Below, piece after piece: positions 17,624 through 50,297 of a DNA stretch of 64,000 bases. A model generated the notes under the pieces. That model was not told where the DNA came from. It worked only from the letters and a program-made list of their open reading frames with translations, and did no database searches. The DNA is from an uncultured Clostridia bacterium. GTDB taxonomy: Bacteria > Bacillota > Clostridia > Lachnospirales > CAG-274. A program made the position numbers and the translations under genes. Each line of letters starts with the position of its first letter. Position 1 is the first letter of the stretch. Location: assembly GCA_947589665.1 (NCBI GenBank), contig CANQBJ010000001.1, forward strand, positions 62,001 to 126,000, in the 5' to 3' direction.

Positions 17624-17758
17624 TTAGAATGATCCTATTTCGTTATATTTTTTGCCATCCAATGCAGATTTAAGAGTAATACCGCCGCTTACTAACAATA
17701 CAGATTCAGTATTTTTAAGAGTGGTAATACTCATTTCAGGTTTTGTATATCTCTTCAT
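17624..17758 (-). CDS. 44-residue peptide following the cohesin-like gene
   Basis: Short gene with ATG at 17756-17758 behind GGGAGG (10-base spacing) and a TAA at 17624-17626. The peptide starts MKRYTKPEMSITTLKNTESV, has a central GG, and ends YNEIGSF. It has no signal peptide or membrane segment. The YTKPEM start followed by an acidic/hydrophobic stretch and GG recalls leader regions of some RiPP precursors and a common class of small Clostridia peptides of unknown function. It lies 15 bases after the cohesin-like gene and directly before a terminator, so it is the last gene of that operon. Function unknown. Confidence 0.6.
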   Translation of the reverse strand: MKRYTKPEMSITTLKNTESVLLVSGGITLKSALDGKKYNEIGSF

Positions 17759-17773
17759 AATCAATTACCTCCC

Positions 17774-18739
17774 TTATTTAACAATTTTATCTGAACCAAC
17801 TGATAAAGCTGTATCTGCATAGCTTGTAGGAAGCTGCTCAGGAATTGTTAAAGTACCTATTACTGCGGTTTTGCTGGTAGCTGTGCCTTGATCATCATAA
17901 GAATTGTATGTTGCAACAACATCAGCGGAGCCTGTACCCTTGTCAAGTACTCTTACAGGGAATTCATAAGTGTCCTTAAGTCCACCTAACTTTAAAGGAC
18001 TAAGCTCTGTTCCGTTAATGGATATAGCTGTGATTTGACAGTTATCCGGAACCTTAGAACCGTCTACTGTGATCTTAAATGCACCTGCGCAAGCGTTGAT
18101 TTTTTTTGAAGTAACATCCGCTGATTTTTGTGTTACTGTACCAGAATCACACAGTTCGGCAAGTTCTATTTTTATTAGATCTTTATTTAATGCTTCTTCC
18201 TTACTTAAATCATAGCCATCTTTTACTGTATATAACAAATATAATTCTATACCATCACCAAGATTAGGAATTCTATTGGCATCAGTAATAGACCAAGACA
18301 TATGTAAGTTACCATTATTGTTAGGATCTGACATATTATTTGTATAAGCACCCGGATAATTTCCTCTGTATGGTTCAAATGTACTTACAGCATAGTCAAC
18401 CATATTACTACTACTGTTCTCATCTCCCAAAACCTGAGGACCGTATTCTAACAATTTATCATATAAATCGCTACCTGCAACACTTTCATCAATACCCAAA
18501 GTTACGGCATTTTCATCACAACTCACTATAAGTTCAAAAGCTGTTGCAGAACCAGAAGGAGTATCTATATCTATTGGGAAAGCCAGATACTTGCCTGCAT
18601 TATCCGTTCCTTCATATATATCAATAGGATAGCCGACATCACACTTTTCTGGTGAAGCGGCAAATACAGAAAAACTACTTGATGCAGTTACAACAAGAGT
18701 AATTGCTGTAAATATACTCACAAATGTTTTTAATTTCAT
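17774..18739 (-). CDS. Secreted cohesin-like beta-sandwich protein
   Basis: About 321 residues with a signal peptide ending near ...SVFAA. The first ~200 residues after it (KYLAFPIDIDTPSGSATAFE, later VDYAVSTFE and LHMSWS) have the alternating pattern of cohesin or cohesin-like domains, and residues ~225-321 look like a further beta-rich module. No dockerin, sortase motif or SLH domain is seen, so how it stays at the surface is unclear. The ATG at 18737-18739 follows GGAGG; an upstream ATG overlaps that site and is unlikely. It follows a cohesin-dockerin gene in one operon. Cohesin assignment is moderate. Confidence 0.6.
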   Translation of the reverse strand: MKLKTFVSIFTAITLVVTASSSFSVFAASPEKCDVGYPIDIYEGTDNAGKYLAFPIDIDTPSGSATAFELIVSCDENAVTLGIDESVAGSDLYDKLLEYGPQVLGDENSSSNMVDYAVSTFEPYRGNYPGAYTNNMSDPNNNGNLHMSWSITDANRIPNLGDGIELYLLYTVKDGYDLSKEEALNKDLIKIELAELCDSGTVTQKSADVTSKKINACAGAFKITVDGSKVPDNCQITAISINGTELSPLKLGGLKDTYEFPVRVLDKGTGSADVVATYNSYDDQGTATSKTAVIGTLTIPEQLPTSYADTALSVGSDKIVK

Positions 18740-18762
18740 ACGTAACTGTTCCTCCATTCTAA

Positions 18763-19554
18763 TTATGACTCAATAGGGAATTTAGCAATAAGACCAACCA
18801 GTTTTCTTGACATTAAGCTTACATCATTTATAGAAATACCTTCTGTTGTATCTACATTGCCTCTGGCTATCTGGTCACTATCAAGTGTAATTAAACCTAC
18901 TAAATTTCTTCTAGCCAAACTTATATCATTGATCTGCAAGGCACCATTGCCGTCAACATCGCCATATATGAAATCAGCCAAATCAATCTGACCGGTTTCA
19001 ACGACCATATCATTAGTTATGCCGCCGCCTTCTTCATTAGTCTTGACAGTACTATTATCTTCATCAACAAGCTGAGTCATAGCGACATCAACAGGAACAG
19101 ATGTTGCGGCTTCGTCCTTAACGGTAAATGTGACCTCAGCCATAGTTTCCTTAGCTGTGCCCTCTGACGCCTTGACCTGAACAGGTGTAGCTGAAGCCCA
19201 TGCTATTATAAGAGTTTGCTTACCATTGGCAGCAGATTGGATGCCTGATACTATTATACCGTCTGTAAAAGCGGATCCCTCTTTTGCATAAGGTGAATTT
19301 GCATCCCCATTCGCAACAGGAGTCGCTTCTTTAGGATCATATGTAAAGGTCATGACATAGCCGTTTACAACAGCTGTTTCATTGGCATCGGGAATGACCA
19401 TAACGGGAACGTCAACAGTATTGCCCGTATGCTCGCTGCCGTCTACATGGCCTGAACTTCCGCCAATGGCGTACTGTTCGGCATGAGCGCTGACAGCCAT
19501 GACAGCTATTGCCGCACAAGCTATACTTGCGCCTATAAAGCTTTTCAACTTCAT
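18763..19554 (-). CDS. Secreted cohesin-like protein with C-terminal dockerin
   Basis: 263 residues: signal peptide (1-25), cohesin-like domain (about 30-185; VDVPVMVIPDANETAVVNGY, then VMTFTYDPKE), and a type I dockerin at the C-terminus (about 195-260). The dockerin has two calcium repeats, GDVDGNGALQINDISLARR and GNVDTTEGISINDVSLMSR. Dockerins bind cohesins to build extracellular enzyme complexes, so this protein could be an adaptor joining one scaffold to another. It is first in the operon behind TTTACA-17-TATCAT and next to two dockerin-bearing pectate lyases. Confidence 0.8.
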   Translation of the reverse strand: MKLKSFIGASIACAAIAVMAVSAHAEQYAIGGSSGHVDGSEHTGNTVDVPVMVIPDANETAVVNGYVMTFTYDPKEATPVANGDANSPYAKEGSAFTDGIIVSGIQSAANGKQTLIIAWASATPVQVKASEGTAKETMAEVTFTVKDEAATSVPVDVAMTQLVDEDNSTVKTNEEGGGITNDMVVETGQIDLADFIYGDVDGNGALQINDISLARRNLVGLITLDSDQIARGNVDTTEGISINDVSLMSRKLVGLIAKFPIES

Positions 19555-19591
19555 GATTAACCTCCTTTTTTATTTAATTTTCAGTATATAT

Positions 19592-19620
19592 ATGATAACA
19601 TTTTTTGGGGGTTTTGTAAA
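19592..19620 (-). promoter_or_regulatory. Promoter of the cohesin operon
   Basis: Minus-strand TTTACA (19615-19620) and TATCAT (19592-19597) with 17-base spacing, about 40 bases upstream of the cohesin-dockerin gene. Confidence 0.6.
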
Positions 19621-19680
19621 TAGTAATTTTTAGGTCTGAACATTTAATTCTTATTTTAATAATAATTATTTTATTAATTT

Positions 19681-19713
19681 CTCAGTAGGGCGCACATTGT
19701 ACGCCCTGCTGAG
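19681..19713 (-). terminator. Hairpin after the giant pectate lyase gene
   Basis: CTCAGCAGGGCG / CGCCCTACTGAG stem on the minus strand, 35 bases past the stop, followed by an AT-rich but not pure-U stretch. Confidence 0.6.
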
Positions 19714-19747
19714 TGTTAAAAAATTCAATGCAGCAGTCCGTTTACAT

Positions 19748-22700
19748 TTACTTCACCATTTTAAATACATCGTCAAATGTAATTCCGTCAGGGAATTTAT
19801 CAGCCTTACAGTAAGAAATTATTTCATCTCTTATCCTGTATATCTCCTTTTCAAGTTCATCTGTGTTGGAAGGCTTTGTTACGCTCTTTCCACTTGGAAG
19901 AACATCGCTACTGTGACCATTCCAGCCATATACATGGCTCCATGACTGAGCAATATAATCTTCAAGCTGATAATTTGGCTTTCCTGCTGAGTTAAAGGCT
20001 ATAGTATAGTTGAAATTCGTATTTACCTTTTTGCTGTTATTATTGTCAAAATTCTTTGCCTTATGGTCAAATGCCAGACAATATTCTACATTTCTGGTAA
20101 TACTTCCGTCAGAACTAGTATTTCCTGAACCAAACTTAAATCCATTTCCGTTCATTTCAGTATTGGCAGTAGAGAGCCATGAGGAAATATCTTTATTGTT
20201 TATCTTTGTTCCGCTGTTGTCATATGTACCGCTTTCATACTTTGTCTTGAATGCCGAATTGGATTTGATCATATCATTGATACTCTTCATCTTGGTATCA
20301 AGAGGGTCTCCGTTGTCAAAATCAAACTTGCCTGTGAAAACATTAGGATTGCCATTATTCCAGCAAGCTGAATGATGATATTCTATAAACGGTGTTTGCT
20401 GCGTTTTATCATAGGAATCCCAACCATCGTCTGAGTTATCCCATGAATAGCAGTATTCAAAACAGGTATTTGAACAGCCAAGCTTAGGAGCAAAACCATC
20501 GGCATTGGAGCCTGCATTATCTACATCGCAGTTTCTGTAGGAATAGCAATATCTTATTACATTGCCCTTTGAATTGTCATCAAGCTGTATTCCTGTATCA
20601 TAACAATATCTTACTATACAATGCTCTATCTTATTATTGTTAGAGCCTTGTACTGCTATGCCATTATCTCCTGCATTTTCAATAATAAGATTTTGTATAA
20701 TATTATTATTGCTGCCGCTCTTTAATTGTATACCATATGCAGAATCTCCAACAGCTTCGCTTGAAAAATCAAGCACAGGGTATGTGCCGTCAGGCTGCTT
20801 CTTGCCTACAAGAGCGCCATTGGAACCTGCTATTACAAGCTTTGAAGAAAGCTTTATTTCAGGAGCGTCTACATATATTGTACCGTTTGAAATATTTTTT
20901 ACGGCATTTACAAGATCAGATGCTGTCTTAACAGTTGCAACAACATTTGAAGGCACAGGTGATAACTGTGGCTCAGGACCTGATGGCGGAAGCTCAGTTT
21001 TTTCCGTAGTGGTCTGTGTAGTCTTTTCGACCTTAGCCGTTGTAGCTTCCGTAGTTTTTTCTGTAACAACTGTACTGCCGTATGTCACCTCTACAGAAAT
21101 TATGTTTGCGGAGGTGCCGCCTGTCTGACCTGCGGTTATTTTGTATACTCCTGCAGGAACTCCGCTTACTGTAAGGGTCTTCTCTCCGCCGGCGTGGTCT
21201 ACGGGCTCGCCTGATTTACCATAGAATATTACCCATGCAGCCTTGTCGGTGTCACTTGAACCGCATTTATATGTAATAGTAACTTCGGCGCCGTTGTTAA
21301 GCTTAAGCTCTACATAGCTGTTAGAAGAATCATTTATCTTGACCTCGCCTTTGCTTGACTGATTGCCGCTTACCTTAAAGTGAGATGTATCGCTCAATAT
21401 ATTACTATATTGATAAGTACCTGCGGGAAGAGCCGTAAGACCGGATTGATCCTTAGTGGTAGCTTCTGTTGTTGTTTCCTTAGTTGTAGTTGTTGCCTTT
21501 GTTGTAGTTGTTGCCTTTGTTGTAGTTACTTCCTTTGTTGTAGCTTCTGTTGAAGGCTCCTGTACTTCTCCGTCCTTTGGCGTAACATTTATGCCGTATA
21601 TCTCAGGATTTGTACTGATGCCGCCAAGGTAAACTACATTGCCCTTATTAAGAGTTATGTTAAACATATCATAACCCGATGCGGAAGGCGTAACGGACGT
21701 TATCTGCGTTCCGTCAGACCTGTTGACAAAGGCATATGTCTTATCTACGTTATGACATATGGCAAATGATACGGTCACATCTTCAAGAGCCTCTATCTGA
21801 GCCGCAAGACGATATGTAACGCCATTTAATTTGGTCTGCACACTGTCTGTCTTGACATAATGACTTGCTTCTATGTCTCCGAACGTGGCAGGAAGATCTG
21901 TCTTACCGCTATATCCAAGATCATATTTAAGGTCCTGAGCGGCAGTTATCTTAACTCTGCCCGTAGAATATATCTCTTTGCCGTTTGCAATGTCTGTTGT
22001 AGGTATCCAGTCAAAGCTGCCTGAAGGTGCAGGAGGCTCAGGAGGAGTCACCGTACCTCCGCTGCCTAAATTGCTGAGTATCCACAGAACATCGCCCATG
22101 TCTATTCCTGTCTTGCCGTCACAGTCTGCATTGGCAAGAGCAACTGAACTTTCTATGGACTTAATATGAGAAATATGGTTGAGCACAACAATGGCGTCTG
22201 CTGTCTCTACCTTGCCGTTCATATCAGCATCGCCCCTTAAGGACTGGGCTGATGTGGTTACGGTAACAGTTCCGTTTTTAACAGTATACTTAATATCCGT
22301 AGCTTCATCAGACTTAATGTCTTCAACACTTATATTTACGTTGGTAGTGCTGTTTGCCGTAAAGTTTACATAGAAGAGGTAACCATCTTCTATAGTATTG
22401 GCAGAATTTACACCTGCTACCTTTACCTGACCTGATGACGGATTTGCTTCTATCTTGTCTGTCGTGCAAGCCGTACCGTTCTGTACAGATACGTATGTAA
22501 GAGCGCCCGGCGTGTAGCTCAATGTAACAGCATAGTTTGCAAGAGAAGTGATGCCGCTTATCTTAACAGGTACGCTTACCTTTGCGCCCCTTGATACCGT
22601 CTGGCTCACAACCGAAAGCTCCGCCGTATCAACGGTAGGCTCTACAGGCTTAGGCGTATCTGATACATACTCTATGTAGAAGAAGTTAGGAGTACCACTG

Positions 22701-25147
22701 CCCTTTGTTATAGTATGTGTTCCTGCATCTATTGCATATTCATAAGCGCCGCTTCCGAGAATTGTCATGCTTGTGAACTGTACCGGTGTGCCGTCTATAT
22801 TTATATTGGCGCCGCTTTCGCCATTTACAACAAGTATGAGCTTTCCTTTGCCTGATGTAAATCCTATATGGGTACTTGATTCCATCTTAAGACATCTTGT
22901 AAGAGTCTGACCCTTATAGTCTACAGTACCCTTGCCTGTTGAAAGATTGCCTTCAAAATCAAAGAATTCCTCAGGATCGTTAAGTCCGTCATGTGTGAAG
23001 TTATGGAGAGTATTATCTGCATCGGTATCTCCGCCGCCAACATCTCCGCCGCCCTGAGCCTGAGTGGTAGCCTGAGTATCGGGCTCCTGAGAACTGCTCT
23101 TTGTAGTAGTCTGAGTTGTATCCTTAGCCTGAGTGGTAGCCTGAGTTGTAGGCTCTGCTTCTGTAGGCGCATTAGGATCGAAGGCAGTTATCTTGAGGTG
23201 AGTTATCTTAGCTTCCTTATATTGGCCCTTATCTAATATTCCTGACTGTATGATATAAGTGCCTGCAGGCAGATTGTAAGCCGTATCTGTACCTGAGATT
23301 ATCTGCTCGCCGTCTGAATTCATAAGAATTACAGGAGTATTTGAACCGCCGTCTGTAATTGAAATATTAACGGCTGTATTTACATTGAATACTATATCCT
23401 GACCTTCTGCGTTCCTGCCGAGATTTACACATGAACTGCTGAGCTTGCTGACATTGAATATAATATTGTCCTTAGTCATGTGAGTGCTCGTAAGATACTT
23501 GTTGTTAAGATCCTGATCATATGGAAGCTTTACAGAAGCCGTAGGCTGTCTGTCGCCTGCTACAACGGAGGTATCTACGCTTTCGGGATCCATAACAGGC
23601 TCCGCCTTCATAACGCCAGCCTGTGAAAGTACCGTCGCCTTGGCAAGAGCTATGCTTTCATCAAGCTTGTAATTGCCTGACGGTATATAGCTCAGACTTG
23701 GATTGGTATCAAAATCAGAATATTTGTTGTTGTTTGGAATAACCTGGTTTTTATCCGTTACTACAGTAGCGTTCATATTTCCCTTACAGCCTGTAAGAGA
23801 GTCGTTATAGCTCTTTATAGGGCCTCCGTCGCTCTTTACCCACTGGGGATCATTACACTGATAGAATAAATTGTACTCCGAGAAAATGTAACAGTCTGCT
23901 CTTGTGTTCATAGCATAGGCTGTCTGATTTTCAAAGAAGTTGTTATACATATGTATATTTGCCTGGCGTCCGAGAGGACCTCTGGATTCACAATCCTTCC
24001 AATGATTGTGATGATATGTCAGATTGTACTGAAGACTTGTGTCCGAAGAACCTACAAGATTTGTCTTGTGGTAGCCCTCATAGTAGCAGTAGCTGTTTGT
24101 GAAATACTGACCTCTCTTGAAATCGCAGGCGCCGTCGCCGCCGTCCTTGTCGCCTTCGGCAGGGTTGGAAATAGTCGGCTTGTAGAATTCACAATGGTGT
24201 ATCCAGCAGCGCTCGACCGGAGCTGATAATTCGCTGCCCGTCTGCTGACCTTCCATGCCTACGCAGTCCTCGGGAACATTGCGGAAGGTTATATTCCTTA
24301 CCTCAAAGCTCTTGCCGAAGCGGCCTGCCTGATAGCCTGCTGTTGAGCATATAAAGTGTATGCCCCAGCCGTCTACTGTGGCGTCTGTACCTATACCCTC
24401 TATTGTAACGTCTTTGCCGCCCTGCATTCTTGCCATAAAGCCGTTGTCGCCTACCGAACCGCCGTAATTAACGGAATCGTATGCGGTAAGACCATCAGGA
24501 GCCTTTACATCGCCTATTATCCTGACTACAAGAGGCGTTCCTTCTTGAGCAAGCTTTTGTATAATGCCGCTGTTGGTATTTGTCAATGCTCCTGTTTCCT
24601 TAGGAGTCGCACCTGCTGAGTTAAGTATGTTGCCTATACCTGTGACTGTTGTGCCTCCTGCCGTTACAGAAACACTGTCCTTGTTTTCATTGGTAACATA
24701 CAATACCTTTGCGTTTGGCTTAAGAGTACCTTCATCCGTATATGCGCCTACGCCCTCGTTATAATTAAAGTGGGCATAGCCTGAACGGTCGTACTCATAA
24801 ACCGTTATGTTTTCTTTCTTAAGCGTTGTGCCGCCTGCGGTTACGCTTAATGTATAGCTGCCGGGCTTTACTCCCGGAATGTCTATACGTACCTTTCCGT
24901 TTACATCTCTTACGAGATACTGCAGAGCATCGCCATCAAGCTGACCTGACGTTGTGCCGCTCCAGGATACAGCCGTTACGTCTTTGTCACTTACGCCTGT
25001 AAGCTCTGCAAATATTGTCTCATACCAGCCGCCGCCTGCTATTGTAACCGTTGCTGCCATTGCGTCAACAGGCGCAACAGTCATTGAGCCCACAAGCATG
25101 GCTGCTGAGAGAAATGTGCTTAAAATTCTTTTTAAGCCCTTTTTCAT
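19748..25147 (-). CDS. Giant bifunctional pectate lyase: PL1 - cohesin-like - dockerin - CBM-like - PL9
   Basis: 1799-residue secreted enzyme. Modules by position: signal peptide (1-32); PL1 beta-helix (about 160-510; YHHNHWKDCESRGPLGR carries the substrate arginine region); beta domain (530-650); Thr/Gln linker (660-705); CBM-like domain (710-830); cohesin-like domain (835-955); dockerin (965-1030; RGDADMNGKVETADAIVVLN and NADCDGKTGIDMGDVLWIL); two further CBM-like domains (1045-1190, 1235-1355) separated by a TTK/TTE linker; C-terminal PL9-type beta-helix (1395-1799; SNADGFAPKLG, NSDDGWD, GNGFKFGSG). Cuts polygalacturonate by beta-elimination, presumably with two catalytic centres. The internal dockerin is unusual. 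Module borders are approximate. Confidence 0.88.
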   Translation of the reverse strand: MKKGLKRILSTFLSAAMLVGSMTVAPVDAMAATVTIAGGGWYETIFAELTGVSDKDVTAVSWSGTTSGQLDGDALQYLVRDVNGKVRIDIPGVKPGSYTLSVTAGGTTLKKENITVYEYDRSGYAHFNYNEGVGAYTDEGTLKPNAKVLYVTNENKDSVSVTAGGTTVTGIGNILNSAGATPKETGALTNTNSGIIQKLAQEGTPLVVRIIGDVKAPDGLTAYDSVNYGGSVGDNGFMARMQGGKDVTIEGIGTDATVDGWGIHFICSTAGYQAGRFGKSFEVRNITFRNVPEDCVGMEGQQTGSELSAPVERCWIHHCEFYKPTISNPAEGDKDGGDGACDFKRGQYFTNSYCYYEGYHKTNLVGSSDTSLQYNLTYHHNHWKDCESRGPLGRQANIHMYNNFFENQTAYAMNTRADCYIFSEYNLFYQCNDPQWVKSDGGPIKSYNDSLTGCKGNMNATVVTDKNQVIPNNNKYSDFDTNPSLSYIPSGNYKLDESIALAKATVLSQAGVMKAEPVMDPESVDTSVVAGDRQPTASVKLPYDQDLNNKYLTSTHMTKDNIIFNVSKLSSSCVNLGRNAEGQDIVFNVNTAVNISITDGGSNTPVILMNSDGEQIISGTDTAYNLPAGTYIIQSGILDKGQYKEAKITHLKITAFDPNAPTEAEPTTQATTQAKDTTQTTTKSSSQEPDTQATTQAQGGGDVGGGDTDADNTLHNFTHDGLNDPEEFFDFEGNLSTGKGTVDYKGQTLTRCLKMESSTHIGFTSGKGKLILVVNGESGANINIDGTPVQFTSMTILGSGAYEYAIDAGTHTITKGSGTPNFFYIEYVSDTPKPVEPTVDTAELSVVSQTVSRGAKVSVPVKISGITSLANYAVTLSYTPGALTYVSVQNGTACTTDKIEANPSSGQVKVAGVNSANTIEDGYLFYVNFTANSTTNVNISVEDIKSDEATDIKYTVKNGTVTVTTSAQSLRGDADMNGKVETADAIVVLNHISHIKSIESSVALANADCDGKTGIDMGDVLWILSNLGSGGTVTPPEPPAPSGSFDWIPTTDIANGKEIYSTGRVKITAAQDLKYDLGYSGKTDLPATFGDIEASHYVKTDSVQTKLNGVTYRLAAQIEALEDVTVSFAICHNVDKTYAFVNRSDGTQITSVTPSASGYDMFNITLNKGNVVYLGGISTNPEIYGINVTPKDGEVQEPSTEATTKEVTTTKATTTTKATTTTKETTTEATTKDQSGLTALPAGTYQYSNILSDTSHFKVSGNQSSKGEVKINDSSNSYVELKLNNGAEVTITYKCGSSDTDKAAWVIFYGKSGEPVDHAGGEKTLTVSGVPAGVYKITAGQTGGTSANIISVEVTYGSTVVTEKTTEATTAKVEKTTQTTTEKTELPPSGPEPQLSPVPSNVVATVKTASDLVNAVKNISNGTIYVDAPEIKLSSKLVIAGSNGALVGKKQPDGTYPVLDFSSEAVGDSAYGIQLKSGSNNNIIQNLIIENAGDNGIAVQGSNNNKIEHCIVRYCYDTGIQLDDNSKGNVIRYCYSYRNCDVDNAGSNADGFAPKLGCSNTCFEYCYSWDNSDDGWDSYDKTQQTPFIEYHHSACWNNGNPNVFTGKFDFDNGDPLDTKMKSINDMIKSNSAFKTKYESGTYDNSGTKINNKDISSWLSTANTEMNGNGFKFGSGNTSSDGSITRNVEYCLAFDHKAKNFDNNNSKKVNTNFNYTIAFNSAGKPNYQLEDYIAQSWSHVYGWNGHSSDVLPSGKSVTKPSNTDELEKEIYRIRDEIISYCKADKFPDGITFDDVFKMVK

Positions 25148-25171
25148 AAATTTCTTCCCTCCCGTTATAAA

Positions 25172-27232
25172 TTATAATGAAGATATTAATTCATTTACAT
25201 ATCTTGCTATTTTGTAAGCATCTGAGCCCGTTACCTGACCATCGCCGGTAACATCGGCTATGCTTGCCACAGACTTTATTTTTCCCACTACATACTGCAG
25301 TATATGGCTTACGTCCTCCATATCTACAATTCCGCTGCCGTCTGCATCTCCCTTTATACCGCTGACAGGTGACTTCGTTGTAGCCTCCTCAGAGGGTTCG
25401 ACTACAGGCGCCTTTGTGGTGGTGGTAGTTGAGGTCTCCTTTGTAGTGGTAGTAGGCTTTGGCGGTTCTACTGTTCCTCCGGCTGAGGTGCCGCCTACGC
25501 TTACCAGCGTTGATTTATAACTCTCCACCGCTGACTTGAGCTTTGTGTCCACATCAGAGGAGGAAGCATCTGTAAGACCCGGATAATCGCTTCTTGATGT
25601 GCCTGTGCTTTCAAAGAAATCTCCGCCGTTCATACGTCCTGCATCTGCCATGACTATACGCGGAACATCGGCAACAGGATCTATGTCGGAGGCGCTTACG
25701 CCCAAGTCATATGCTGAATTTGTATCAAAGTTATTATATGCCATTGAACCCACAAGGGTCTTGACAGAGGAAGGAACCGTCTGTGTTCTGGAGGATACCT
25801 CATAGGCATCGAACTGTACGGAATGACTTCCTGTGTCATAAGGCATATATGAACCCCCTTTTGAGGTCTGTATATTGTTTATGATATTGTTATATGCCTT
25901 TATAAATCCGCCTCCTTCATTTGAAAACTCGCTCTTGTCGTCATATGTGCCGGTGCTAGGCTTATATACGTCTGAGCCCTGCTTAGACATGAGCATGGGA
26001 TACTTGACCTCGTCAAAATAATTGTTCTCAACAAAGGCATTGCTGTTCTTTACTGCGCCTACTCCGAATTTTGATACTCCGTCAAAATAGTTATTATAAA
26101 CATGTACAGAATGTATTCTTATTCTTGGATGTCTTGAATCCGAATGATCAAACCAGTTGTGATGATATGTCAAATGGGCTTCTTCGGTATCTCCCATGCC
26201 GCACAGAGATGTCTTGCCCGCATCCCACAGATGATTGTAGGACATTGTCACATAGTCCGTCTTCTTGGCATCAAGAGAGCCGTCGCCCTTAGCCTGATCC
26301 TCATCGCTACCTGTGCTGCCATAGAACAGATCCAAATTGTGTACCCATATGCCGGAATTGTCCGTATCCATTGAAACGCCATCGTCCATAAAATTCATTA
26401 TGGCAAAATTCCTCAGCTCTGTATCAGCGCAGTTCCTTATAAGGAAGCCAAAGTCCTTTATAACGGCATCTTCTCCTATGCCCTCTATTGTCAGCTTCAT
26501 ATCTGTGTGAGCTTTATTGCCCTTTACCTGAAGGCCTTCCTCAGCGCTTGATATATGATCCAGATCGGCCTTGCTGACAGTACCTATAATACGCACGTCA
26601 AGAGGTCTCTGCTCAAATTTTGTATTGGACAGCATACCGTCAAAAATGCTCTGCAAGCCGGTGAATGTGGACTTGCCGCCGTTTTTGTCCGTCACAAGCT
26701 CTGCCGTGACCGTCTTTGCATTGTCGGCTGTAACATATATCACCTGAGCATTGTCCTTAAGTGTACCGTCGGGCTTGTATGCACCCGAAGCATCGCCGCC
26801 TGTAGCGGAATTTTTTGAAAAGGCAAAGCCTTTGCGCTGATGTGCCTTTACATTGAGAGTACTTGTGGTAAATGCCTGAGCTTCGTTTAAAGCTCCGTTA
26901 ATAACAGGCACTATCTTTATTACATACTCTCCTGCTTTAAGTCCTACAGCGTCTGCTCTGAAATGATCCGCATACTTTCTTATAAGCTCGTTGTCAAGCC
27001 TTGTATATGCCGAATCATTTGCGCTTGCTTCCTTTACATAAGCCGCAAAGCCCTGTGCATTGGGAACAGTTGTCCACTCGGCATATGCCGATTCAAACCA
27101 GCCTCCCTGCTCCAGTATATATCCTCCTGCCGCTGTTACCGACAGTACTGACATATTTGAAAGCATTATGCCGGAAGAAAGCATTGCCACTGAAACAAAT
27201 AAGCTTAAAACTCTCTTTAAGCTTTTTTTCAT
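25172..27232 (-). CDS. Dockerin-bearing PL1 pectate lyase
   Basis: 686-residue secreted enzyme. Signal peptide (1-34), N-terminal beta domain (40-135), PL1 parallel beta-helix (about 150-500) with the family motifs WVHNLDLFYGS, KGDGSLDAKK (calcium aspartates) and YHHNWFDHSDSRHPRIR (catalytic arginine region), Thr-rich linker (about 590-620), then a C-terminal dockerin (KGDADGSGIVDMEDVSHILQ and DVTGDGQVTGSDAYKIARYV). It cleaves pectate by beta-elimination and should attach to a cohesin. AAAGGAGG precedes the ATG. The N-terminal ~150 residues resemble those of the neighbouring PL1-PL9 enzyme, so the pair probably arose by duplication. Confidence 0.92.
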   Translation of the reverse strand: MKKSLKRVLSLFVSVAMLSSGIMLSNMSVLSVTAAGGYILEQGGWFESAYAEWTTVPNAQGFAAYVKEASANDSAYTRLDNELIRKYADHFRADAVGLKAGEYVIKIVPVINGALNEAQAFTTSTLNVKAHQRKGFAFSKNSATGGDASGAYKPDGTLKDNAQVIYVTADNAKTVTAELVTDKNGGKSTFTGLQSIFDGMLSNTKFEQRPLDVRIIGTVSKADLDHISSAEEGLQVKGNKAHTDMKLTIEGIGEDAVIKDFGFLIRNCADTELRNFAIMNFMDDGVSMDTDNSGIWVHNLDLFYGSTGSDEDQAKGDGSLDAKKTDYVTMSYNHLWDAGKTSLCGMGDTEEAHLTYHHNWFDHSDSRHPRIRIHSVHVYNNYFDGVSKFGVGAVKNSNAFVENNYFDEVKYPMLMSKQGSDVYKPSTGTYDDKSEFSNEGGGFIKAYNNIINNIQTSKGGSYMPYDTGSHSVQFDAYEVSSRTQTVPSSVKTLVGSMAYNNFDTNSAYDLGVSASDIDPVADVPRIVMADAGRMNGGDFFESTGTSRSDYPGLTDASSSDVDTKLKSAVESYKSTLVSVGGTSAGGTVEPPKPTTTTKETSTTTTTKAPVVEPSEEATTKSPVSGIKGDADGSGIVDMEDVSHILQYVVGKIKSVASIADVTGDGQVTGSDAYKIARYVNELISSL

Positions 27233-48204: not shown

Positions 48205-48435
48205 ATGAAAAATTTAACTCTTAAATTAGACTCAATTGACAAGGTAAAGGATTTTGTAAACATTATAAGCACTTTTGACGGTGACTTTGATTTAGCTTCC
48301 GACAGATATGTTGTAGACGCAAAGTCAATAATGGGTATCTTCTCATTAGACGTTAGCAAGCCTATCCGCCTTGACGTACATGATGACGCTGAGTTTGACG
48401 CAGTTAAGGCTAAATTAGGCAAGTACGAAGCATAA
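48205..48435 (+). CDS. HPr-like protein lacking the phosphocarrier histidine
   Basis: 76-residue HPr-fold protein. True HPr has a GxHARP motif around residue 15; here that loop reads KLDSIDKVKDFV with no histidine, so it cannot carry phosphate in the sugar PTS. The regulatory serine region is kept as VDAKSIMGIFSLDVSKP (Ser41). It thus resembles Crh of Bacillus, which acts only after serine phosphorylation by HprK. Strong GGGAGG site, consensus promoter, and its own terminator make it a well expressed single gene. A HprK-related kinase gene lies about 1.9 kb away on the other strand. Confidence 0.85.
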   Translation: MKNLTLKLDSIDKVKDFVNIISTFDGDFDLASDRYVVDAKSIMGIFSLDVSKPIRLDVHDDAEFDAVKAKLGKYEA

Positions 48436-48515: not shown

Positions 48516-48834
48516 TGTACGTATAAATTTTTGTTTAACTGAGTAAAATATACCTCTCCACCGCCTAACGGCGTCAGCACTTTCGGCTTTGCCGAAAGCC
48601 GACCTAACGGTCGTCCGATAAATCTTTCGGTGCAATGTCCCCCTCCCCTGATAGGGGAGGTTTAGGTGGGTGTCTTTCAAAGTTGCTTATTTACTTAGAA
48701 AAACAACAACTAAGCTGCTGTCACAGCCTTTGCGGTGCATAACCTCCCCTAGCGTAGCGTCGGAGGGGAGGGGGACCATGCGCAGCATGGTGGAAGGGTC
48801 GCCTTACTAACATAAACACAAATTTAATGCAACA
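48516..48834. repeat. Family-1 MITE-like repeat, copy at 48.5 kb (~319 bp)
   Basis: Outer ends TAAATTTTTGTTTA (left, about 48524-48537) and TAAACACAAATTTA (right, near 48813-48826) are inverted repeats; the right end continues ATGCAACA, the same end as the family-2 element at 17162. Inner ends ACCTCTCCACC and GGTGGAAGGGT are also inverted. Inside are hairpins such as CTTTCGGC/GCCGAAAG, CTCCCCTGATAGGGGAG and CCATGCGCAGCATGG. No protein-coding content. Confidence 0.8.
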
Positions 48835-48853
48835 GCCTCTTTTATCGTGCAGT

Positions 48854-49330
48854 TTATTTTATTTTAAATATTTTTTTAATTACTCTCTTAATGCGGTTCA
48901 TACCGCCGAACAGTATATGCCTTAGGGGCATAATGCCTACCCATATCCTGACATAAGCGCGGTACAGCTTATTGTCGGCGGAAAAGGTCCTTTTGCCTCT
49001 GTGTATCTCGGTGACTATTCCCGCAAGCTGATCGTGGCGTATGCCCCTTTCTACAGTCCACTGATTGTCGCCGCACATATTGTATGTACCGTCGGCATTT
49101 ACCCCCACTACTCTGTGGAGTACAAACTGACCGTCATCTCTTATATACAGAGGAAGGTCATATTTTTTAAGAGGGTCAACAGCCTTTTTTATAACAACTC
49201 TGTCGCCGTCGTTGTGTATGGTGGGGAGCATACTCGTGCCTTTGGGATTGAAATTGACTGTACCGCCGCTTTCAAGCATTTCCTTCATTACACCGTATAT
49301 CTCATTGAGCCTTACCTGCTTAGTCTGCAA
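48854..49330 (-). CDS. S24/S26-family (signal-peptidase-like) peptidase
   Basis: 158 residues. The serine motif NPKGTSMLPT puts the nucleophile at Ser33 and LHRVVGV places a histidine near 72, the Ser/His pattern of the SipW/S26B-type signal peptidases rather than Ser/Lys. MCGDNQW is the usual GDN motif. The C-terminal ~40 residues are basic and hydrophobic and may anchor it. The likely start is the TTG at 49328-49330, 9 bases after GGGAG, overlapping the PqqD gene by 11 bases. Last gene of the kinase-PqqD-peptidase cassette; it could release a leader peptide. Confidence 0.82.
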   Translation of the reverse strand: MQTKQVRLNEIYGVMKEMLESGGTVNFNPKGTSMLPTIHNDGDRVVIKKAVDPLKKYDLPLYIRDDGQFVLHRVVGVNADGTYNMCGDNQWTVERGIRHDQLAGIVTEIHRGKRTFSADNKLYRAYVRIWVGIMPLRHILFGGMNRIKRVIKKIFKIK

Positions 49331-49586
49331 TAAAACCAGCTCCCTTTAAGGAGGTCATATATTCCGCAACATCCCTTCTGGCAGTTTCCTCATCTGTATC
49401 GTATTCCTTGAGTACTCTCTGCACAAGCTCCTCCTCGGAAACATCCTCTTCAAGATTCTTCCAGAGGAAGGCGCCTACATCGTTAAGCGTTATAACGCCG
49501 CTGAAATCCATTGTACCCTCGCCTACAGGCACTACTATATTGCTGCCTGCCACCTCTCTCAATAAATAACCGTCTTTTATCTTCAT
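49320..49586 (-). CDS. PqqD-family peptide chaperone (RRE domain)
   Basis: 88 residues forming the winged-helix PqqD/RiPP recognition fold: LLREVAGSNIVVPVGEGTMD, then ITLNDVGAFLWKNLEEDVSE and EEELVQRVLKEYDTDEETAR, ending KGAGFI. Such proteins bind the leader of ribosomally made peptides and present it to enzymes. It is flanked and overlapped by a HprK-like kinase gene (3 bases upstream) and an S26 peptidase gene. Confidence 0.88.
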   Translation of the reverse strand: MKIKDGYLLREVAGSNIVVPVGEGTMDFSGVITLNDVGAFLWKNLEEDVSEEELVQRVLKEYDTDEETARRDVAEYMTSLKGAGFIAD

Positions 49587-49589
49587 AGC

Positions 49590-50297
49590 TTATTCCTCCA
49601 CTTTTATTCCGTTATAGCTTACCTCAGCCGCTTCCTCGGATATATTGCAGCCCAGTCTGTAGAGCTTTACGCTGCTCAGTACTCTGTCCAGCATATCCAG
49701 AAGCATTATCATCCTGTCCTTTTCGGCAGGTCTTATGGTCTGCTGCATTACAAGGGGTATTGCCTCCACTGCCTTTATCTGCTTTACCCAGTTGTCCTCC
49801 GAGCGCTCTAAAAACACAATTGCTCCAAGAGGCACCTTCATATTAAGGTTTCTGTCAGTCTTACCGCTCCAGGGGGTACCATATACCCAAAGCCTGTCGT
49901 CTACAAGCCTTATGGCGGGCTTATCGTCATTTATTATCCTTGCATTGTCCGCGCCGAAATGCTTTTGCCAAAGCTCCGTGTGTGTAGACTTTCCCGTACC
50001 GGGATCGGCGGAAAACAAATAGGCATAGCCGTCCTTTACAACACCGCTGCTGTGGAGCATAAAGCCGTTGAAGTGCAAAAGCGCCTCGTAAAATGCCGCT
50101 CCCGTATAGACATATTCTATATCATCTATTGTAAGATGAGGGCTTTCCCTATGCCACTGCTCCAATGTCTCGTCGGGAATATCTATTGTTATCTGAGGCT
50201 TTTCAAACTCAGTCTCATAGAACTTAGCCTGCTTAAGCATTGTGTCATATTTATATTTGATAAGCAAATCTATATCTGCAACTCTTAGTTTATGCAT
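49590..50297 (-). CDS. HprK-related kinase of a PqqD/S26 cassette
   Basis: About 235 residues of the HPr-kinase/PEPCK-like fold. The P-loop is FSADPGTGKSTHTELW; other family marks are GFMLHSSGVV, RIINDDKPAIRL and YGTPWSGKTDRNLN. It lacks the N-terminal domain and full signature of true HprK/P, and matches the small kinases found with PqqD proteins in RiPP and lasso-peptide gene sets. ATG at 50295-50297, 7-8 bases after AGGAG, is preferred. Promoter TTGTTA-17-TATACT just upstream. Target may be a RiPP precursor, or speculatively the HPr-like protein nearby. Confidence 0.82.
   Translation of the reverse strand: MHKLRVADIDLLIKYKYDTMLKQAKFYETEFEKPQITIDIPDETLEQWHRESPHLTIDDIEYVYTGAAFYEALLHFNGFMLHSSGVVKDGYAYLFSADPGTGKSTHTELWQKHFGADNARIINDDKPAIRLVDDRLWVYGTPWSGKTDRNLNMKVPLGAIVFLERSEDNWVKQIKAVEAIPLVMQQTIRPAEKDRMIMLLDMLDRVLSSVKLYRLGCNISEEAAEVSYNGIKVEE

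Follow-up and report, generated by a model that had tools for sequence, protein, structure and literature searches.

What does a set of peptide-modifying enzymes act upon when no precursor gene lies beside it? The question is raised by three closely spaced genes, K, B and S, on the minus strand of the window (the whole 64-kb stretch of DNA analysed here), within which, as the initial annotation had noted, no precursor gene adjoining the trio is found. That annotation had read the three as an HprK-like kinase, a PqqD protein and an S26 peptidase, and the cassette is real, being overlapping, confined to one strand and recurrent in 16 of 41 related genomes. K (49590–50297) starts with an ATG behind AAAGGAG, an alternative longer GTG ORF running from 50327; a gap of 3 bp separates it from B (49320–49586), which in turn overlaps S (48854–49330; start TTG) by 11 bp. 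The comparison of gene neighbourhoods that the annotation had proposed found K-B-S contiguous in nearly all of the 16 trio-positive relatives while the flanks varied and consisted of unrelated housekeeping genes; we therefore regard the trio as a unit. Purifying selection on all three genes is strong (dN/dS about 0.04–0.09 against one relative), and a PADLOC search gave no link of the trio to defence. Downstream of S, the window carries at 48550–48840 a GC-rich inverted repeat, CCTCCCCT...AGGGGAGG, which resembles a dispersed repeat.

A Pfam search with K gave no match, and against NCBIfam only weak matches to ScmC and HprK-related models were obtained. Since sequence searches against the PDB gave no useful match for K (nor for S), K was placed by its fold: its AlphaFold model (pLDDT 89) has HprK/P and PEPCK as top PDB structure matches, which makes it an HprK/PEPCK-fold kinase. 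The motifs GTGKSTH (P-loop), INDDKPA and TPWSGKTD are intact and are conserved in 19 relatives, the P-loop being invariant. B, present in a single copy in the genome, is a discrete PqqD-type RiPP recognition element (RRE) [PF05402, E=6.5e-18]. S resembles leader peptidases of the SipW/archaeal-type S26 group [TIGR02228, archaeal-type signal peptidase I, E=1.6e-4], with putative active-site residues S33, H72 and D88/E94; among its homologues S33, H72 and D88 occur in 43 of 43 and E94 in 42 of 43.

The trio was suspected to be a peptide-modifying set, and this is borne out by its kinship with the Linear Polyphosphorylated Peptides (LPP) described in May 2026 from Paenibacillus alginolyticus, whose genes are ordered lppA-K-B-S-D-N (PMC13381572). 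There LppK (HprK-like) phosphorylates core Ser3; LppB, an RRE, binds a YxxP leader (YxxPxVLxHQxIxFETxxS), contacting its Tyr and Pro through N33, Y60 and D70; and LppS (SipW-like; S29/H68/D93) removes the leader with the help of LppB (PMC13381572). The window likewise has an HprK-like kinase, a discrete RRE and a SipW-like leader peptidase in the order lppK-lppB-lppS, so that the enzymology of the trio is known in outline. The B family profile matches the LppB crystal chain 9x8z [E=2.5e-6] as well as TbiB1 [E=1e-10]; in the 9x8z alignment N33, Y60 and D70 of LppB correspond to N35, Y62 and D72 of B, pocket residues which are kept in 35/35, 34/35 and 30/35 sequences, respectively. LppB was the only LPP enzyme compared directly by sequence, K being likened to LppK and S to LppS by fold, motifs and gene order. 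At the acid position of S, E94 is a Glu where Asp may be expected. In the kinase tree the orphan trios of the family form one clade, nested among the kinases of full A-K-B-S-D-N clusters.

The system differs from LPP in several respects. It is found in Clostridia rather than Paenibacillus; the LPP precursor lies within or beside its cluster, whereas here none lies beside the trio and the precursors discussed below are scattered over contigs; and no ABC gene corresponding to the MsbA-like exporter of the LPP cluster is found beside the trio, although an ABC gene is present in relatives L036 and L037. The PF14907 NTP transferase (lppN) is absent from the genome as assembled, but homologues occur in 11 of the 16 trio-positive and in 0 of the 25 trio-negative relatives. 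The precursor leaders keep YxxPx[IVL] and, as in LPP, a Ser shortly past the leader motif, while the second half, HQxIxFET, is replaced by [DE][IV][IV]Tx. Because of these differences in leader, adjacent precursor, exporter and NTP transferase we call the trio LPP-like and not a strict member. The annotation had ranked it as the best candidate in the window for an undescribed system; as lppK-lppB-lppS has been characterised (PMC13381572), the machinery cannot be so described. The enzymes represent an LPP variant, and the novelty lies in the substrates.

The strict Bacilli LPP motif, YxxPx[VLI][LIVM]..F.T, used as a finder, gave no convincing precursor in the loci. Canonical clostridial clusters, inspected by eye, then supplied the leaders; in them a leader ORF precedes the genes of K, B and S, of an ABC exporter and of a PF14907 NTP transferase. 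In such full clusters of class-level relatives an ORF of 30–60 aa lies directly upstream of K, for example MKKPYLAPEIEIQQFEVEDIIALSSDLGDFEEIDM (L106). A DNA pattern built from a class-level cluster leader matched six places in the genome under study, the reversed pattern, our control, matching three. All six are ORFs of 43–50 aa belonging to one family, five of them directly behind genes for secreted proteins and one at a contig start. A seventh family ORF lies beside one of the six. The eighth is a peptide of 44 residues in the window, MKRYTKPEMSITTLKNTESVLLVSGGITLKSALDGKKYNEIGSF (17624–17758, minus strand), preceded by a Shine-Dalgarno-like GGGAGG and located 15 bp behind the gene of a secreted protein; it had been named at the outset as a possible distant substrate, and profile matches now identify it as a precursor of the family. 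From these eight a profile (A4) was built, which finds 11 places in the genome, eight by construction and three new, the weakest of the latter [E=0.024] showing no tight pairing with a secreted-protein gene. The suggested genome search for short peptides with a common leader has thus yielded about 10–11 dispersed precursors, with the N-terminus MKxYxKPxIxI...(D/E)(I/V)(I/V)TxS or close variants. No NCBIfam family describes them. Between orthologous precursors dN/dS is mostly 0.1–0.35 (a single close pair gave no information), and most pairs show stronger conservation in the leader than in the core.

Trio and precursors occur together. K and S are found in exactly the same 16 of the 41 related genomes, and A4 matches all 16, with 1–20 precursors each and a best E per genome of 8.5e-21 to 5.4e-5. 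Only one of the 25 trio-negative genomes has a precursor set, G020, which is 71% complete and in which K, B and S were not found; the others have no A4 match or single weak ones, mostly inside longer reading frames. G008 has neither trio nor precursors, both of which are present in two other members of its genus. The resulting contrast (16/16 against 1/25; Fisher p=1.6e-10) is not corrected for relatedness. A broader leader profile (A5), run on 391 Clostridia, matches 66 genomes, 65 of them with K, that is 65 of 116 kinase-positive against 1 of 275 kinase-negative genomes (p=1e-40); since genomes are related, both p-values overstate independence. Several Clostridia families have up to 17 precursors per genome. 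In a number of class-level genomes K and S are on separate contigs, so that the enzymes too are dispersed. In three loci of other Clostridia (L102, L104, L026) the kinase lies away from S amid genes which by eye are thymidylate synthase, DHFR, uracil glycosylase and PolA. In G019 a further homologue of S, extended at its C-terminus (L038:67–933), lies beside ParA/ParB-like genes and without a kinase.

In the regions retrieved, 66 of 71 precursors have a same-strand gene no more than 60 bp ahead, typically at 9–20 bp and in several cases overlapping. A crude script served as signal-peptide heuristic; it passed 48 of 58 complete upstream genes against 71 of 288 in the background (p=9e-17), and several of the ten misses resemble mis-started or truncated secreted proteins. 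At class-level loci an upstream same-strand ORF lies within 60 bp in 24 of 30 cases. The partners include pectate lyase, pectinesterase with GDSL lipase, papain-type protease, leucine-rich-repeat adhesin, and proteins without a Pfam match.

To the last group belongs the partner of the window precursor, a secreted protein of 327 aa (17774–18757, minus strand) with a low-confidence AlphaFold model (pLDDT 56), whose aligned relatives are also linked to precursors. Upstream exoprotein genes of the same run (18763–27232, minus strand) encode a cohesin-domain protein, a 1799-aa pectate lyase with CBM77 and a 686-aa pectate lyase with dockerin (25172–27232). The entire run including the precursor (17624–27232) hints at a small cellulosome-like set for the degradation of pectin. 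A near-identical precursor (L151:178–321 and L213:4968–5111) stands behind a similar exoprotein in two genera with kinases of only 64% identity, possibly by horizontal transfer of an exoprotein-precursor module. Precursors with a VEER leader variant (L255, L271) lie downstream of a SPASM-like cysteine-rich protein and not of an exoprotein; perhaps they represent a second modification type. We found no description of dispersed RiPP precursors coupled to exoproteins in the literature, a search which covered open-licence papers.

Many of the partners have a C-terminal domain in common. Among 4258 ORFs, a profile of 18 such C-termini matches only those from precursor regions, including five proteins outside the training set. 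In pairs with otherwise unrelated bodies the similarity of the peptide cores follows that of the C-termini (r=0.61), the leaders scarcely doing so (0.11). The pectate lyase at 25172–27232 terminates in a dockerin, and no peptide gene follows it; the homologue in L152 (40% identical) has a C-terminal domain of the precursor-linked type together with a peptide gene. Like the dockerins of the same genome, the domain is a module at the C-terminus of pectate lyases and further exoenzymes, but it is accompanied by a separate gene for a peptide; two dockerin loops within the last 140 residues occur in none of the 58 partner proteins.

How is this arrangement to be explained? We consider it very probable that K-B-S is a stand-alone, LPP-like maturase which acts in trans on a family of dispersed RiPP precursors. 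One could instead take K for the HPr(Ser) kinase of the genome, with B and S as incidental neighbours. K has the HprK fold, the genome contains no PF07475 HprK, and an HPr-like protein encoded nearby (48205–48435, plus strand), which the annotation had offered as an alternative substrate, keeps a Ser-46-like motif, SIMGIFSLD. This HPr-like gene, however, does not adjoin the trio in relatives and its product has no YxxP leader; the genomes that contain K are also those that contain S, and across the class K follows the leader peptides. We judge this reading very improbable. It can scarcely be credited, furthermore, that a lasso-peptide cluster has decayed and left B, K and S behind as functionless remnants. 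It is true that at the trio the cyclase, the B2 protease and an adjacent precursor are all absent. Nevertheless the trio motifs are intact, many precursors are conserved, and the selection values given above point to constraint on trio and precursors alike. Paeninodin-type lasso peptides share the HprK-like kinase and discrete (B1) RRE with the trio, but lasso clusters combine a macrolactam cyclase with a B2 cysteine peptidase, neither of which is present at the window trio, with its S26 serine peptidase. The annotation held that constant company of a lasso cyclase or another known RiPP enzyme would speak against a new system; no macrolactam cyclase or B2 peptidase is found at the trio loci of the family, save for an asparagine synthase gene near the S homologue and ABC exporter of one relative (L036:317–2158), a possible link to lasso-like clusters which the decay reading may count in its favour.

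A more serious contender, which we nonetheless think somewhat improbable, is an ordinary LPP pathway whose products are secreted natural products; its tie to exoproteins would then reflect no more than shared regulation or hitch-hiking at the 3' ends of exoprotein genes, functional contact being absent. For LPP and lasso peptides, both natural products, no role is known (PMC13381572), some class-level precursors adjoin K-B-S-ABC-N as in a normal cluster, and those behind the SPASM-like protein lack an exoprotein. Such a pathway accords poorly with the pairing of 66 of 71 precursors, with cores that track the C-terminal domain across unrelated bodies, and with a homologous lyase that carries a dockerin and no peptide gene. 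Since C-terminal domain and precursor are adjacent in the DNA, their co-variation could arise by shared recombination without contact; such joint recombination of a gene's 3' end and the adjoining precursor is the chief explanation other than physical contact.

Other known systems offer partial parallels. SynChlorMet has, side by side, ScmC and ScmD, distant relatives of K [E=9e-9] and B [E=4.5e-5] whose scores fall far short of the curated cut-offs (35 bits against a cut-off of 125, and 23.6 against 100); it differs from the trio, which has no radical SAM enzymes. In the prochlorosins one trans-acting enzyme serves many precursors scattered over the genome, with lanthipeptide chemistry, unlike the trio here. 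We know of no tie between prochlorosin precursors and exoproteins.

For the trans-acting maturase we suggest the following course, the enzymatic steps being modelled on LPP. Precursor and secreted protein would be made together from a bicistronic message, their genes often lying about 13 bp apart or overlapping. B would bind the YxxPx[I/V/L] leader of each precursor of 40–50 aa; K would phosphorylate, perhaps several times, the conserved Ser right past [DE][IV][IV]Tx; and S, guided by B, would cut off the leader near this Ser. The core would be specific for the C-terminal domain of the partner. Thus the mature phosphopeptide would most probably work together with the exported protein on the cell surface, for instance as a tag, either bound or linked. 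That mature phosphopeptides partner secreted proteins seems to us, taken by itself, plausible though a little short of an even chance, and the export route, the binding to the C-terminal domain and any linkage to surface polysaccharide are speculative.

Most of the NTP-transferase copies sampled lie, as judged by eye, amid genes resembling those of polysaccharide synthesis. This agrees with the association of LPP with capsule loci in Bacilli and motivates the idea of surface tethering. In its widest form, which we advance tentatively and think rather unlikely, there would be a genome-wide system of surface sorting or tagging, an alternative to dockerins. Secreted proteins otherwise unrelated would each have, at the C-terminus, a domain fitted to its own RiPP phosphopeptide, the gene of which follows immediately; the single central K-B-S trio would mature every one of these peptides, NTP transferases in polysaccharide loci would extend them in many relatives, and peptide and domain together would tether the protein to the cell surface.

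RiPPs are usually discovered by searching beside the modifying enzymes, and substrates as distant as these would be missed. The link between kinase and exoprotein-coupled peptides across Clostridia offers a testable function for the LPP enzymes, for which no biological role is known (PMC13381572), namely partnering with exported proteins. It points, moreover, to a C-terminal module of a new type on the plant-cell-wall enzymes and adhesins of gut Clostridia, and with it what may be an unrecognised means of decorating or attaching exported proteins.
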